Shown: positions 1,861 to 7,029 of the stretch, piece by piece
Numbering within the stretch: position 1 is the first letter of the stretch
How the letters are laid out: each line of letters starts with the position of its first letter
Assembly: GCA_900316805.1 (NCBI GenBank)
Contig: ONEJ01000027.1
Span: forward strand, 1 to 41,978
Length of the DNA: 41,978 nt
Direction: 5' to 3'
Origin: an uncultured Lachnospiraceae bacterium
GTDB taxonomy: Bacteria > Bacillota > Clostridia > Lachnospirales > Lachnospiraceae
The notes under the pieces: generated by a model
The model's input: only the letters and a program-made list of their open reading frames with translations
Databases searched by the model: none
What the model was told of the DNA's origin: nothing
Translations under genes and position numbers: made by a program

Positions 1861-2742
1861 ATGACAAATGATTTTCAGAAAACTGCCAATCGGGTTTCCC
1901 TGGTTAGCATCTTTGGCAATCTGATTCTTTCGGCTTTCAAACTTCTGGCAGGCATCATTGCCCACTCCGGTGCCATGATCTCCGACGCTGTTCATTCGGC
2001 ATCAGATGTGTTCAGTACAATTGTAGTAATCATCGGAATCCGCGTCTCTGCCAAGGACTCTGACAAAGATCATCCTTACGGTCATGAGCGGATGGAATGT
2101 GTGGCAGCTGTCATCCTTGCGACCATTCTGCTGATTACCGGCTTGTCCATCGGAATCGATGCCGTCCGGACTATTATAGGCGGCAATTACGGCGATCTGG
2201 CTGTCCCGGGGATGCTGGCTCTTGTAGCGGCAATCATTTCAATCATCACCAAGGAAGCCATGTTCTGGTACACCAGGATTAACGCAAAACGCATTGACTC
2301 CTCTGCGCTGCTGGCAGACGCCTGGCATCACCGTTCCGATGCCCTTTCCTCCATCGGGGCTATGATTGGTATCGCTTTTGCAAGGCTGGGATTTCCCATT
2401 ATGGATCCCATCGCGAGCCTTGTGATCTGCCTGTTCATCGCAAAGGCCTCCTACGACATTTTCAAGGATGCCATCAATAAAATGGTGGATCACGCCTGTG
2501 ACGAGGAAACTGAGGAACAGTTCCGCAGCTGTGCAGCCAGTGAAGAAGGCGTTCTTCGCATCGATGATCTGCGCACCCGTGAATTTGGTAATAAAATATA
2601 TGTGGATATTGAAATTTCTGCCGATGGGAACCATACCCTGTGGGAAACCCATGATATCGCCGAGCGGGTTCATAACAAACTGGAGGAACAGTTTCCGAAG
2701 GTGAAGCATGTGATGGTGCATGTGAATCCCTATACGGAATAA
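1861..2742 (+). CDS. Cation diffusion facilitator family transporter
   Basis: This 293-residue protein is a full-length CDF (FieF/ZitB-like) inner-membrane antiporter, a family that exports divalent metals such as Zn, Fe, Mn or Cd in exchange for protons. Six hydrophobic segments fill residues ~15-205. The metal-site motifs are visible as SDAVHSASD in the second membrane helix and DAWHHRSD in the fifth. A soluble C-terminal domain (~210-293) carries histidines near its end (HVMVHVNP), as in the family's cytoplasmic dimer domain. The ribosome binding site AAAGGGG precedes the ATG. The gene has its own promoter and is followed by a strong hairpin terminator. The metal cannot be assigned from sequence alone. 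Confidence 0.9.
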   Translation: MTNDFQKTANRVSLVSIFGNLILSAFKLLAGIIAHSGAMISDAVHSASDVFSTIVVIIGIRVSAKDSDKDHPYGHERMECVAAVILATILLITGLSIGIDAVRTIIGGNYGDLAVPGMLALVAAIISIITKEAMFWYTRINAKRIDSSALLADAWHHRSDALSSIGAMIGIAFARLGFPIMDPIASLVICLFIAKASYDIFKDAINKMVDHACDEETEEQFRSCAASEEGVLRIDDLRTREFGNKIYVDIEISADGNHTLWETHDIAERVHNKLEEQFPKVKHVMVHVNPYTE

Positions 2743-2760
2743 CACACTGAAAAAATGCAC

Positions 2761-2812
2761 AAAAGAGTCCTATACTGCTTTGTTTTTTGCAGTGATGTGG
2801 GACTCTTTTTTC
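2761..2812. terminator. Bidirectional hairpin terminator
   Basis: AAAAGAGTCC (2761-2770) pairs perfectly with GGACTCTTTT (2799-2808), and an inner ACTGC/GCAGT stem extends the hairpin. A T-run follows on the + strand and an A-run precedes it, so it can stop transcription in both directions. It ends the transporter gene and also sits in the wreckage of the oxidoreductase pseudogene. Confidence 0.8.
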
Positions 2813-2819
2813 CTTCCTC

Positions 2820-3780
2820 TGCCATCCCCGATGATATAAAGCCCGGGGTATTTGGACTGCGGAAAAATGCTTTGCCACCAGAAGGGCAAAGTTGGTATTT
2901 TCCGCGCGAAGATCCGGACTGTCATAGCTGTGGCCGTTGACGGTAACAATACCGTTGGTGTTCTCATTTACCACCATGCCGTAAGGATTCATACAGAAGG
3001 TTCTTACATTGTCCTCAAATCGTTCCGTCCGATACACGATCTTGCTCTCATAGAGTTCGTCCGTCAGATGAGAAAAAATGATGGCTGGAAGTTCCACCCG
3101 GACACCGATATCCAACCGGTTGGATTTGGTGGGAATGGCAAGGTCACTGCAGACCTGCTCCATCCACTTACTTCCGCTCCTTCCCACAGACACAATACAT
3201 CTGCGGCAGTCATAGGTTTTGTCCTTTGTCAAAACACGGTAGCCATCCTCTGCCACCTCAATCTTTTCCACCGGCGTATCGAAAAAGAAGTCCATGTGTT
3301 CCTTCATCTCGTTGTACAGATTCTCCAGAACCACGTAGTTGACGTCTGTCCCCAGATGGCGCACAGAAGCATCCAGCAGTTTCAACTTATTCTGCATGCA
3401 GAGCTTCTTGAGAGAAGTTCCGGCAGTGGAATACATTTTCGTTCCCTCGCCACCGTGGGACATATTGATGCTGTCCACATATTTCATCAGTTCAAAAGCC
3501 CGTTCTCTTCCGATGTACTCATAGAGGGTGCCGCCAAAATCGTTGGTGATATTGTATTTTCCATCGGAAAAAGTTCCCGCCCCGCCAAATCCGTTCATGA
3601 TGGCGCAGGTCTTACACTTGATACAGCTTTTGACCTGATTTCCGTCAATGGGACAATGGCGCTGCTCCAGAGAATGTCCCCCATCAAATACAGCAATTTT
3701 TAAGTCTTTTCTCTTCTGCATCAGTTGTAGGCCGAAAAGATTCCTCCCGGTCCTGCTCCGATAATAATCACATCATACAT
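2820..3780 (-). pseudogene. Decayed FAD-dependent oxidoreductase (COG2509-like)
   Basis: The start at 3780 has a good ribosome binding site and encodes the Rossmann motif VIIIGAGPGG, but the frame hits TGA at 3721-3723. Shifting one base restores the expected continuation (L-M-Q-K-R-K-D), so a single-base deletion near 3724-3727 breaks the gene. The long middle part is intact in the other frame (IKCKTCAIMNGFGGAG; SVGRSGSKW; NGIVTVNGHSY; ENTNFALLV). It then stops matching around 2870 and jumps, in yet another frame, to YPGLYIIGDG, a C-terminal FAD-binding motif of this family. This implies an internal deletion of roughly a hundred or more codons. The remainder after IGDG is missing. COG2509 proteins are uncharacterised FAD-dependent dehydrogenases. 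The open frame continues artificially into the antisense of the transporter gene, which I do not regard as coding. Confidence 0.75.
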
Positions 3781-3884: not shown

Positions 3885-5885
3885 TTATTTATTCTCCCGA
3901 CTCTGGTTGCGGTACTGCAGCGGCGTCTTGTCGAAGGTTTTCTTAAAGGTGCGGGTGAAATGCTCCACATTCTGATACCCTACTGCATAGGCAATGTTTT
4001 CAACGGTCATATTGCCGTTCTTCAGAAGAGTCTTGGCACGTTTCATACGGATGCGGGCCACATGCTCCCCGAAGGTCTTGCCGGATTTATCCTTAATATA
4101 CTTGGAAATATAAGGCTCCGACAGATGGAACTGCTCTGCCATACTCTCCAGGGTCACCGTCTGGTAATTGTTCTGGATATAGTTAAGCATTGCCGTCAGA
4201 CGCTCATCCTGACCCTCTTCATTCTGCTCAATCTGCGGCAGTTTATTCACGGCAACGATCAGCGCGTCGATGGAAGCACGGATAATATCCTCATCCATGC
4301 CGACACCCCAGTAATTCTTTCCGTCGCAGGTAATGCCCACATAGGCAATGGCCTTGGAGGAAGAGCCATGGGAAAGGGCGTGCTCCTCATAGGTGGAAAG
4401 CTCATAGCTGACGCCGAAGAACTGCTTGAAGGTGTTGCTGACTGCATCCAGACGTCCGTTACCGTTGGCATCTACGATTGTCTTCTTACCGCCACATACA
4501 ATTTCCACCTCTGCCATAATACCGTCATTCTGCTTAAAGTGGCAGGAATTTATAGTGAAATACGGTCTCGGATTGACATACTGCTCCTCGAAAATATTGT
4601 AAACCCACTGAGGAGAAAGCTCCTTGTGCTCCTCATCGGAAACCTGCTTTACCGCATAGCCGACTTCCTCCCGCATTGCCATTGGCAGGGAAATAGAGAA
4701 GTTCTGCTTTAAGATGTAGCTGATTCCGCCCTTGCCGGACTGGCTGTTGATGCGGATGACATCGGAATCGTAGGTTCTTCCCACATCCACCGGATCGATG
4801 GGCAGATACGGAACGGTCCAGGTCTTTAAGTTTTTCTCCTCACGCCATGCCATACCCTTGGCGATAGCATCCTGATGAGAACCAGAAAAAGCGGAAAATA
4901 CGAGATTTCCTGCATAAGGAGCACGATCTCCCACCTGCATTCTGGTAAGGCGCTCATAGGTCTCGCGAATCTTTGGCATATTTTCAAAATCAAGTCCAGG
5001 ATCCACACCATAGGAATACATATTCATGGCAACGGTGATAATATCCACGTTACCGGTACGCTCGCCGTTTCCGAAGAGGGTTCCCTCGATACGGTCCGCT
5101 CCCGCAAGAATACCAAGCTCCGCATCACTGACACCGCAGCCTCTGTCGTTGTGCGGGTGCAGACTTAATACCACATTGTCTCTGTATTTCAGATGCTTGC
5201 TCACATACTCGATCTGGGTGGCAAATACATGAGGCATCGCCGTCTCCACGGTGGCCGGAATATTGATGATGGCCTTGTGCTCCGCATCCGGCTGCCATAC
5301 ATCCAGCACTGCGTTGCAGACATCCACCGCATATTCTACTTCCGTACCATGGAAGCTCTCCGGACTGTACTCAAAGGAAAAATCCCCGTCCGTCTCTAAA
5401 GCCAATTCCTTCAGAAGCTTTGCCCCGTCCACAGCCAGCTTCATGATCTGATCCTTATCCTTCTTAAACACCTGCTCACGCTGAGCCACAGAGGTGGAAT
5501 TGTACAGATGGATTACTGCGTGTGGCGCTCCCTTTACCGCCTCAAAGGTCTTCTTAATAATGTGCTCTCTGGCCTGAGTCAGCACCTGAACCGTCACATC
5601 ATCCGGGATCATATCCCGCTCGATCAGAGTTCTCATAAAAATAAACTCCGTCTCAGAGGCTGCCGGGAAGCCCACCTCGATTTCCTTAAAGCCGATATCC
5701 ACAAGCATCTGGAAAAATTCCAGTTTCTCGTCCAGACTCATAGGCTCGATCAGCGCCTGATTGCCGTCACGTAAATCAACGGAACACCAGATTGGTGCCT
5801 TTTCTATATGATCCTTCTTCACCCAGTCATATTCACAAACCGGTGGAAGGAAATACTGTCTCTCGTACTTGTCATAATTCTTCAT
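3885..5885 (-). CDS. leuA: 2-isopropylmalate synthase fused to an AraC-type DNA-binding domain
   Basis: Residues 1 to ~555 are a complete type-2 LeuA, which condenses acetyl-CoA with 2-oxoisovalerate in the first committed step of leucine synthesis. The catalytic HMGL-like barrel shows the metal/substrate motif DLRDGNQ (residues 37-43), the metal histidines in HPHNDRG, and GNGERTGN. The C-terminal LeuA regulatory/dimer domain follows, with VDANGNGRLDA and YVGITCDGKNYWGVGMDEDI. After a short E/Q/D-rich linker, residues ~562-666 form a full AraC/XylS double helix-turn-helix: MAEQFHLSEPYISKYIKDKSG as the first HTH and IAYAVGYQNVEHFTRTFKK as the second, ending in the usual TPLQYR. There is no stop or frameshift between the parts. 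The ATG follows AGAGGATC and the gene stands alone with its own terminator. I infer that the protein may bind DNA in response to leucine or substrate, perhaps at its own or other leu/ilv promoters. Confidence 0.93.
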   Translation of the reverse strand: MKNYDKYERQYFLPPVCEYDWVKKDHIEKAPIWCSVDLRDGNQALIEPMSLDEKLEFFQMLVDIGFKEIEVGFPAASETEFIFMRTLIERDMIPDDVTVQVLTQAREHIIKKTFEAVKGAPHAVIHLYNSTSVAQREQVFKKDKDQIMKLAVDGAKLLKELALETDGDFSFEYSPESFHGTEVEYAVDVCNAVLDVWQPDAEHKAIINIPATVETAMPHVFATQIEYVSKHLKYRDNVVLSLHPHNDRGCGVSDAELGILAGADRIEGTLFGNGERTGNVDIITVAMNMYSYGVDPGLDFENMPKIRETYERLTRMQVGDRAPYAGNLVFSAFSGSHQDAIAKGMAWREEKNLKTWTVPYLPIDPVDVGRTYDSDVIRINSQSGKGGISYILKQNFSISLPMAMREEVGYAVKQVSDEEHKELSPQWVYNIFEEQYVNPRPYFTINSCHFKQNDGIMAEVEIVCGGKKTIVDANGNGRLDAVSNTFKQFFGVSYELSTYEEHALSHGSSSKAIAYVGITCDGKNYWGVGMDEDIIRASIDALIVAVNKLPQIEQNEEGQDERLTAMLNYIQNNYQTVTLESMAEQFHLSEPYISKYIKDKSGKTFGEHVARIRMKRAKTLLKNGNMTVENIAYAVGYQNVEHFTRTFKKTFDKTPLQYRNQSRENK

Positions 5886-5933
5886 GATGATCCTCTTTTC
5901 TAATCAAATAAATATTATCAATTTCTTTGACCT

Positions 5934-5942
5934 ATTTTAGCA
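5934..5942 (-). promoter_or_regulatory. Possible extended -10 promoter of leuA
   Basis: The minus strand reads TGCTAAAAT about 50 bases before the leuA start codon, an extended -10 element without a convincing -35. Just upstream (5943-5960) is a run of overlapping short repeats (TAGCA, GCATGC, ATGC-GTT-GCAT) that could be an operator for the AraC domain. Both points are tentative. Confidence 0.35.
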
Positions 5943-6004
5943 TAGCATGCAACGCATTGGAATGATTAAATTTATTCAGTTTTATTGATTTATTTTAACA
6001 TCCT

Positions 6005-6640: not shown

Positions 6641-7029
6641 TACTTCTCCAGTTTGGCATCTGCTTTTGCCTGGAATTTCTCGTTGAATACGATAAAACGC
6701 TCATGCTCGCCCTCTCCGATAAGCCCCTTCTCATCAAAGGCCTTTACGGAAAATGTCAGGGCTCTGCCATCCACCTCCACCAGTTCTGTCTCACAGACCA
6801 CCTTCATTCCCACCGGTGTGGCAGCTACATGCTTCACCTTCAATGCCGTACCCACCGTGCCGCTTCCCTCTTCCAATTCTCCCGCCACACTTTCGAAAGC
6901 AGTGTTTTCCATCAGAGCAATCATGGCCGGTGTGGCAAAGACATCCAGTGTGCCGCTGCCCATGGCTTTGGCTGTTTTCTCCTGTGTAACAACGATTTCT
7001 TTTCTTCCTTTCATTCCTGTTTCTAACAT
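6640..7029 (-). CDS. Hotdog-fold thioesterase family protein
   Basis: The 129-residue protein resembles the FlK-like (fluoroacetyl-CoA thioesterase-like) hotdog family. The pattern is MGSGTLDVFATPAMIALMENTA, then a long helix, GTALKVKHVAATPVGM and a C-terminal sheet ending in GEGEHERFIVF. These small enzymes hydrolyse acyl-CoA thioesters in the cytoplasm as dimers. The threonine, glutamate and histidine positions that act in FlK have plausible counterparts here (ATP, MENTA, KHVA), but the substrate is unknown. A GAGG ribosome binding site precedes the ATG. The gene lies 18 bases after the MATE gene and overlaps the next gene by one base. Confidence 0.8.
   Translation of the reverse strand: MLETGMKGRKEIVVTQEKTAKAMGSGTLDVFATPAMIALMENTAFESVAGELEEGSGTVGTALKVKHVAATPVGMKVVCETELVEVDGRALTFSVKAFDEKGLIGEGEHERFIVFNEKFQAKADAKLEK

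Follow-up and report, generated by a model that had tools for sequence, protein, structure and literature searches.

The leuA gene studied here encodes a 2-isopropylmalate synthase that continues, in the same reading frame, into an AraC-type double helix-turn-helix (HTH), and fused genes of this kind in related genomes are preceded by a conserved putative operator in fixed phase with the promoter. The gene lies on the minus strand (3885-5885) of a 41,978-nucleotide stretch of DNA from an uncultured Lachnospiraceae bacterium (contig ONEJ01000027.1 of assembly GCA_900316805.1), hereafter called the window. Our analysis suggests that LeuA-AraC is a trigger enzyme, that is, a metabolic enzyme that is also a regulator, acting on its own promoter and probably being a class II activator silenced by leucine; we give this reading a probability of roughly 0.6. 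Among its parts, the binding of the AraC domain to DNA is very likely, activation is somewhat likelier than repression, and leucine is, to a similar degree, the signal to be expected.

A complete LeuA fused to an AraC-type domain

The gene is a single unbroken frame of 666 codons with an ATG start, and its product joins a complete type II 2-isopropylmalate synthase to a full C-terminal AraC double HTH (Table 1). The protein scores 795.8 bits with the NCBIfam model PRK03739 (NF002991; 2-isopropylmalate synthase subfamily), for which the cut-off is 455 bits, and falls short of the cut-off of the equivalog TIGR00970 (leuA_yeast; 653.5 versus 697.4 bits). Its C-terminus belongs to the AraC/XylS family by the Pfam models HTH_18 (residues 582-661; 76.7 bits, cut-off 33.6) and HTH_AraC (residues 622-660; 51.5 bits, cut-off 26.6). 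A fold of seven helices is expected for a DNA-binding domain of the AraC/MarA type, and seven are indeed predicted at residues 561-664, the first at 561-572 and the last at 655-664, by an AlphaFold2 model of the fusion with a mean predicted local distance difference test (pLDDT) of 85 and a predicted template modelling score (pTM) of 0.63, a value at which the relative placement of the domains is uncertain. The modelled C-terminus thus appears to have the AraC/XylS fold. The in-frame fusion of LeuA to an AraC double HTH, first proposed from the letters of the window alone, is therefore borne out by Pfam, by NCBIfam and by intact homologues.

The fusion is the only clear LeuA detected in the window genome, a draft of 2.25 Mb in 103 contigs that is 82% complete; of the eight further matches, seven are stretches of AraC type and one is a weak match to the enzyme. 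We also considered an internal start that would yield a free DNA-binding domain. Methionine is commonest at residue 567, yet it is found there in only 41% of the fusions, so that a conserved internal start appears unlikely.

Fusion proteins are by no means confined to the window. The original prediction had recommended a search for LeuA proteins of about 660 residues with an HTH domain, and such proteins of 661-676 amino acids, full length and intact, were found in at least 68 of 299 Lachnospiraceae genomes. This number is a lower bound; in one more genome (G163) the fusion gene ends at a contig edge, yet extends into the AraC part. A second set was collected from named records with a query covering the AraC domain as well as the junction. 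Out of 535 loci the best 80 were taken, and after removal of 5 without anchor, 8 already in our set and 1 with too little upstream DNA, 66 were used as new loci, a term that asks only for some difference within the first 900 bases of the gene; near relatives therefore remain among them. All 66 are full length, an outcome that selection by a junction-spanning query favours. Named isolates with an intact fusion include Butyrivibrio sp. and Lachnobacterium bovis DSM 14045. The record titles mostly name Lachnospiraceae or its genera, together with a few metagenome bins labelled Muribaculaceae, Ruminobacter, Mailhella, Succinivibrionaceae and Clostridiaceae.

A stop or frameshift between the domains of close relatives had been named as a sign that the fusion is decaying, and two natural splits of this kind do exist. 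In G061 (L077) and G078 (L080) the synthase part ends with a stop and an intact DNA-binding part follows directly behind it in a different frame. Both genes keep the operator described below, which argues for function over decay, and neither has a T-box leader above cut-off.

Conservation of the enzyme and of its DNA-binding part

The majority residue has a mean share of 0.86 in the catalytic part of the 68 fusions, with values of 0.73 for the dimer domain, 0.74 for the DNA-binding part and 0.45 for the linker. The ratio of nonsynonymous to synonymous changes (pN/pS) in the DNA-binding part ranges from 0.02 to 0.28 in the 11 pairs computed, with synonymous sites near saturation in most of them, and points to purifying selection on this part. 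Residues P591, Y592, S594, K595, E641, H642 and R645, which we take to align with the DNA-contacting helices of MarA, are near invariant.

The enzyme part was mapped by hand, through the alignment, onto residues of Mycobacterium tuberculosis LeuA named in an excerpt of PMC2704214. The GxGERxG motif named there corresponds to G272-G278, and H379 and Y410 correspond to H337 and Y360, all of which are invariant in 60 aligned rows. Among the leucine-pocket positions G475, G477, Y499 and A512, as well as the relay tyrosine Y360, are invariant in the same rows, L479 and L496 are kept in 90% or more, and A503 (A558 in M. tuberculosis) falls outside the conserved columns. Synthase activity and inhibition by leucine are predicted for the fusion. 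Since most of the mapped pocket positions are kept, a leucine-sensing enzyme-regulator is plausible.

A conserved operator upstream of fused leuA genes

The upstream regions of the fused genes share an element with the consensus TTAAAA-N-A-N-ATCAA-N3-AA-N-TGATTAAATT. Allowing up to 6 mismatches in 24 scored positions within 600 bp upstream, we found it at 61 of 68 fused or cut leuA genes and at 1 of 35 unfused genes, where it is weak (Fisher p 4e-19, a value that ignores kinship). The 68 genes of the operator and T-box tables leave out one fused gene with only 47 bp of upstream DNA (L040) and include one cut by a contig end (L078). The controls are a non-random choice of 36 genes from the upper score order, some being skipped, reduced to 35 when the split gene L080 was moved out of them. 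One of the misses, L025, has an operator with 0 mismatches further upstream. A matrix trained on one half of the genes and tested on the other placed 60 of 67 fused upstream regions above the 99th percentile of shuffles, along with all three split or cut genes, versus 1 of 35 unfused genes in either half. In the named set the operator precedes 57 of the 66 new loci.

The original prediction had placed the DNA-binding site in overlapping short repeats at 5934-5960. These repeats cover the spacer and the -10 box, and were discarded as operator because the conserved element is the neighbouring one at 5963-5998. Within the element two half-sites can be recognized, and among the 63 operator-bearing promoters (splits and cut gene included) they lie 22 or 23 bp apart in the 27 where the second reads ATCA; in many others the second reads GTCAC or ACCAC.

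At five loci of one group (L024, L028, L030, L035 and L043) the operator, as judged by eye, lies inside hairpin-like sequence followed by T-runs, so that it may double as the terminator of the upstream gene.

The operator is nearly restricted to leuA. The window genome has a single site of the core pattern. Among 44 genomes that have the fusion, a split gene or a cut one, every one of the 38 sites with at most 2 mismatches lies upstream of leuA, one per genome, and across the 299 genomes the same is true of all 14 sites with at most 1 mismatch (13 fused genes and 1 split). With 3 mismatches, 19 sites away from leuA in the 44 genomes compare with 15 hits of a reversed control pattern. The leuCD region of the window genome holds no operator site, the best candidate having 8 of 24 mismatches. 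In one genome, G036, a site with 2 mismatches lies just upstream of the gene for the small subunit of acetolactate synthase (L115 1481-1507). In a scan that took one such locus from each of 30 genomes (30 of 53 matches), G036 scored 13.1, G282 8.4, G232 6.3, G056 6.1 and both G047 and G057 3.2, compared with a best shuffle score of 2.1, the shuffles spanning whole loci so that AT-rich promoters are favoured. Perhaps the regulon has spread in G036; we do not propose a wider regulon on these results.

Phase between operator and promoter

A perfect TGNTANNAT occurs exactly 47 bases past the first base of ATCAA in 45 of the 63 promoters and within two bases of this offset in 3 more, versus 7 at all other offsets from 25 to 89 together. 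In the window the -10 reads TAAAAT (5934-5939) and is preceded by TG (5941-5942); among the named records, 7 of 8 Butyrivibrio isolates have the box one base nearer. The distance from the -10 to the start codon is variable, with a median of 72 and a maximum of 476 bp. At a spacing of 17 bp the -35 matches on average 3.1 of 6 consensus bases, versus 1.7 at control positions. AraC is a class II activator of the AraC/XylS family, and an activator of this type depends on constant phasing with a promoter whose -35 is weak. As read from the sequence, the spacing of operator and promoter is that of a class II activator site, and the fixed phase combined with a weak -35 is an argument for activation, not a proof of it.

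Table 1. Features of the fused leuA gene and its upstream region in the window.
Feature	Position	Strand	Basis
LeuA-AraC fusion gene, 666 codons	3885..5885	minus	Open reading frame list, Pfam, NCBIfam, family genome search
Catalytic TIM (triosephosphate isomerase) barrel, HMGL-like, residues 31-308	4962..5795	minus	Pfam, above curated cut-off
IPMS_D2 post-catalytic subdomain, residues 327-393	4707..4907	minus	Pfam, above curated cut-off
LeuA_dimer allosteric (leucine) domain, residues 424-549	4239..4616	minus	Pfam, above cut-off; pocket mapped by hand (excerpt of PMC2704214)
Variable linker, residues 550-561	4203..4238	minus	Mean majority-residue share 0.45 over residues 550-566
AraC-type double HTH, residues 562-661	3903..4202	minus	Pfam, conservation, AlphaFold2 model
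Ribosome-binding site AGAGG	5892..5896	minus	By eye
Second operator-like site GTCAAAGAAATTGATAATAT, possible, weak	5913..5932	minus	By eye; between promoter and start codon
Extended -10 box TGCTAAAAT	5934..5942	minus	Upstream alignment, offset count
Weak -35, 3 of 6 consensus bases	5957..5962	minus	Read from sequence and upstream alignment
Predicted operator TTAAAATAAATCAATAAAACTGAATAAATTTAATCA	5963..5998	minus	Upstream alignment, pattern and matrix scans
Promoter-proximal half-site ATAAATTTAATCA	5963..5975	minus	Near direct repeat of the distal half-site at 23 bp; abuts -35
Promoter-distal half-site TTAAAATAAATCA	5986..5998	minus	Upstream alignment, spacing count

T-box leaders at fused and unfused genes

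In Clostridia, according to an excerpt of PMC2494555, T-box leaders couple branched-chain amino acid genes to supply. A T-box (RF00230, gathering score) lies upstream of 28 of 35 unfused leuA genes versus 10 of 68 fused ones; all 38 are on the strand of the gene. Upstream of the window leuA (L001) no RF00230 match reaches the gathering score. The sole T-box above cut-off in the window genome precedes the phenylalanyl-tRNA synthetase genes, and seven weaker matches lie on contigs other than that of the window. In the 10 fused genes that also have a T-box the operator stands upstream of it, as expected of a promoter element, and the two would act in series.

Proposed mechanism and alternative explanations

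LeuA is a dimer, and two AraC domains would thus match the two half-sites of the operator. We propose that when leucine is scarce the dimer would settle with its two AraC domains on the two direct half-sites, 22-23 bp apart and with the proximal one touching the -35, and would recruit RNA polymerase. When leucine occupies the pocket of the LeuA_dimer domain the enzyme would be inhibited and the activator would presumably be switched off. Through the short linker that connects the AraC domain with the leucine domain, leucine binding could alter the spacing of the two, and feedback logic favours leucine turning the activator off. As to dimerization, residues 1-50 are named for it in M. tuberculosis LeuA in PMC2704214.

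The idea that the enzyme is itself the leucine sensor of a factor controlling its own gene, with which the original prediction began, is best upheld in its second half: autoregulation is the best reading of a conserved operator at the gene's own promoter together with purifying selection, and leucine sensing stays at plausible, with most pocket positions kept. In its widest form the proposal is that one leucine site would set both synthase activity and gene dosage through the fused AraC activator on a dedicated operator, in about a quarter of the sampled family genomes (about one per genus), where relatives have a T-box, some genomes stacking both in series; we put the odds for and against this wider picture as even.

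Several observations weigh against the proposal. Six fused genes (L026, L055, L064, L066, L071 and L074) have no operator within 600 bp, and two of the 61 operator calls are doubtful. In L075 the match lies only 30 bp before the start codon. In G292 (L011), which is of the window's genus, the operator is degraded to 6 mismatches, the threshold itself, no -10 is found at the usual offset, and the -35 is the near-consensus TTGACT. Well-supported branches of the tree provide only 3 independent pairs of fused and unfused genes; the operator is concordant in 2.7 of them on average and never opposite, and the exchange of T-box for operator is not independently supported by them. In the leucine pocket, the fusion has L496, D480 and S510 where M. 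tuberculosis LeuA has V551, A536 and A565, respectively. Finally, an operator beside the -35 is also compatible with a repressor.

G292 may, in its own right, be a case of escape from autoregulation.

The likeliest alternative is an autorepressor whose AraC domain blocks the -35 with leucine as co-repressor, so that enzyme and gene are both shut down. The operator abuts the -35, which is weak yet above background, and PutA, an enzyme-borne regulator with a single target, is a repressor according to an excerpt of PMC8249747. In addition, a few genomes have another operator-like site, located past the promoter and before the start codon; the related pattern occurs at up to 2 mismatches in 5 of 62 promoters, the window's own not among them, versus 1.1% in shuffles, so that support for an additional operator there is weak. 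Yet a repressor needs neither one fixed -10 phase nor the combination of a poor -35 with an extended -10, and the near-consensus -35 of G292 beside its degraded operator looks as if the loss of an activator had been compensated, in what is a single case. We therefore regard repression as unlikely, with activation by LeuA-AraC being preferred.

Slightly less probable again is that the AraC domain does bind the leuA operator and answers to another signal, be it enzyme turnover, one of the substrates (2-ketoisovalerate, acetyl-CoA) or 2-isopropylmalate as the product. A response to the substrate is described for trigger enzymes such as PutA in PMC8249747, and the divergent layout of leuCD and a LysR-type gene in the window genome could serve to read the product of LeuA. 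This has to be set against the direct attachment of the AraC domain to the leucine-binding domain and the conservation of most mapped pocket positions, which suit leucine better.

It is quite improbable that a different regulator uses the operator, with the AraC domain attached to LeuA for a structural or some unrelated reason. The six fused genes lacking the operator would fit such a view, but the operator tracks the AraC domain, even in the two natural splits, and is almost confined to leuA, and the positions that we take to align with DNA-contacting ones are near invariant. As for a chance read-through or an assembly error joining two genes, for which one could cite the draft state of the window genome and the broken look of the neighbouring gene, it is ruled out for practical purposes by the intact family genomes, the records of named isolates and purifying selection.

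Relation to known systems

The trigger enzymes of Escherichia coli include BirA, NadR, PepA, PutA and PyrH, as listed in PMC8249747, which cites Commichau and Stulke (2008). The fusion resembles them in being a metabolic enzyme that would also be a regulator, and its own-gene target recalls the single target of PutA. Its architecture, an intact-looking enzyme and a predicted DNA-binding domain in one protein, is that of a trigger enzyme. It differs from those listed in that the enzyme belongs to leucine synthesis, the domain is of AraC type and predicted to bind DNA, and the regulator is probably an activator controlled by the end product.

Like AraC/XylS factors the fusion has an HTH_18 above cut-off and paired half-sites at a spacing of 22-23 bp, of which the proximal one adjoins the -35. 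Such factors have a small sensor domain, whereas the sensor of the fusion would be a biosynthetic enzyme in its entirety, allosteric domain included, and its strong sites lie nearly all at one gene, its own. The best match in both sequence and fold is M. tuberculosis LeuA (PDB 1sr9, 3fig), with the same barrel, linker subdomains and leucine regulatory domain; that enzyme has 644 residues, ends at the regulatory domain and has no DNA-binding domain, whereas the window protein adds about 105 residues. In contrast to the T-box leader, an RNA element that senses uncharged tRNA, the fusion would be a protein switch.

No description of a LeuA-AraC fusion was found in the literature searched, which covered titles and abstract openings, most subscription papers and bioRxiv being outside its scope; the architecture may be catalogued elsewhere, for example in domain-architecture databases. 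What is new here is the conserved operator upstream of fused leuA genes.

If the proposal is true, many gut and rumen bacteria make leucine with a first committed enzyme that doubles as a leucine-responsive regulator of its own gene, in a compact circuit acting on enzyme and gene alike, and an AraC-type, end-product-controlled activator joins the short list of trigger enzymes. It would also show, in nature, a switch made of protein and one made of RNA, the T-box, alternating or stacked at one gene. Leucine control of leuA would then be predicted in cultured carriers such as Butyrivibrio, and the fusion would be a candidate leucine sensor for synthetic biology.

Origin and spread of the fusion

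In a tree of the synthase parts of 106 proteins most unfused genes form one block, and several sit singly among the fused ones. The fused label requires 10 changes on this tree, versus 30.9 when shuffled. This fits an ancient fusion with later losses, on a tree whose deep branches are weakly supported. In a class-level sample of 148 genomes, which includes the window genome itself and members of the family, a LeuA match reaches E 1e-100 or better in 42, and a single genome from beyond the family, G373, carries the fusion (G373:C41:83-2059; 78% identical to that of the window). G373 also has a second, unfused LeuA, and its fused copy is possibly due to transfer or to contamination.

Neighbouring genes

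Directly downstream of leuA, a gene at 2474-3780 (minus) looks broken, with a short start followed by a stop and a main frame that has no Pfam match. At its end this frame overlaps, in antisense, the gene for cation efflux at 1861-2742, and by eye the frame resembles a flavin adenine dinucleotide (FAD)-dependent dehydrogenase; it is either a pseudogene or the result of an assembly fault. Also near leuA, at 6643-7029 (minus), lies a gene for a small protein of the fluoroacetyl-CoA thioesterase family (FlK, E 7e-41). Elsewhere in the window genome (L239 1159-3994, G000:C10), leuCD is divergent from a gene for a LysR-type regulator, which might read 2-isopropylmalate.

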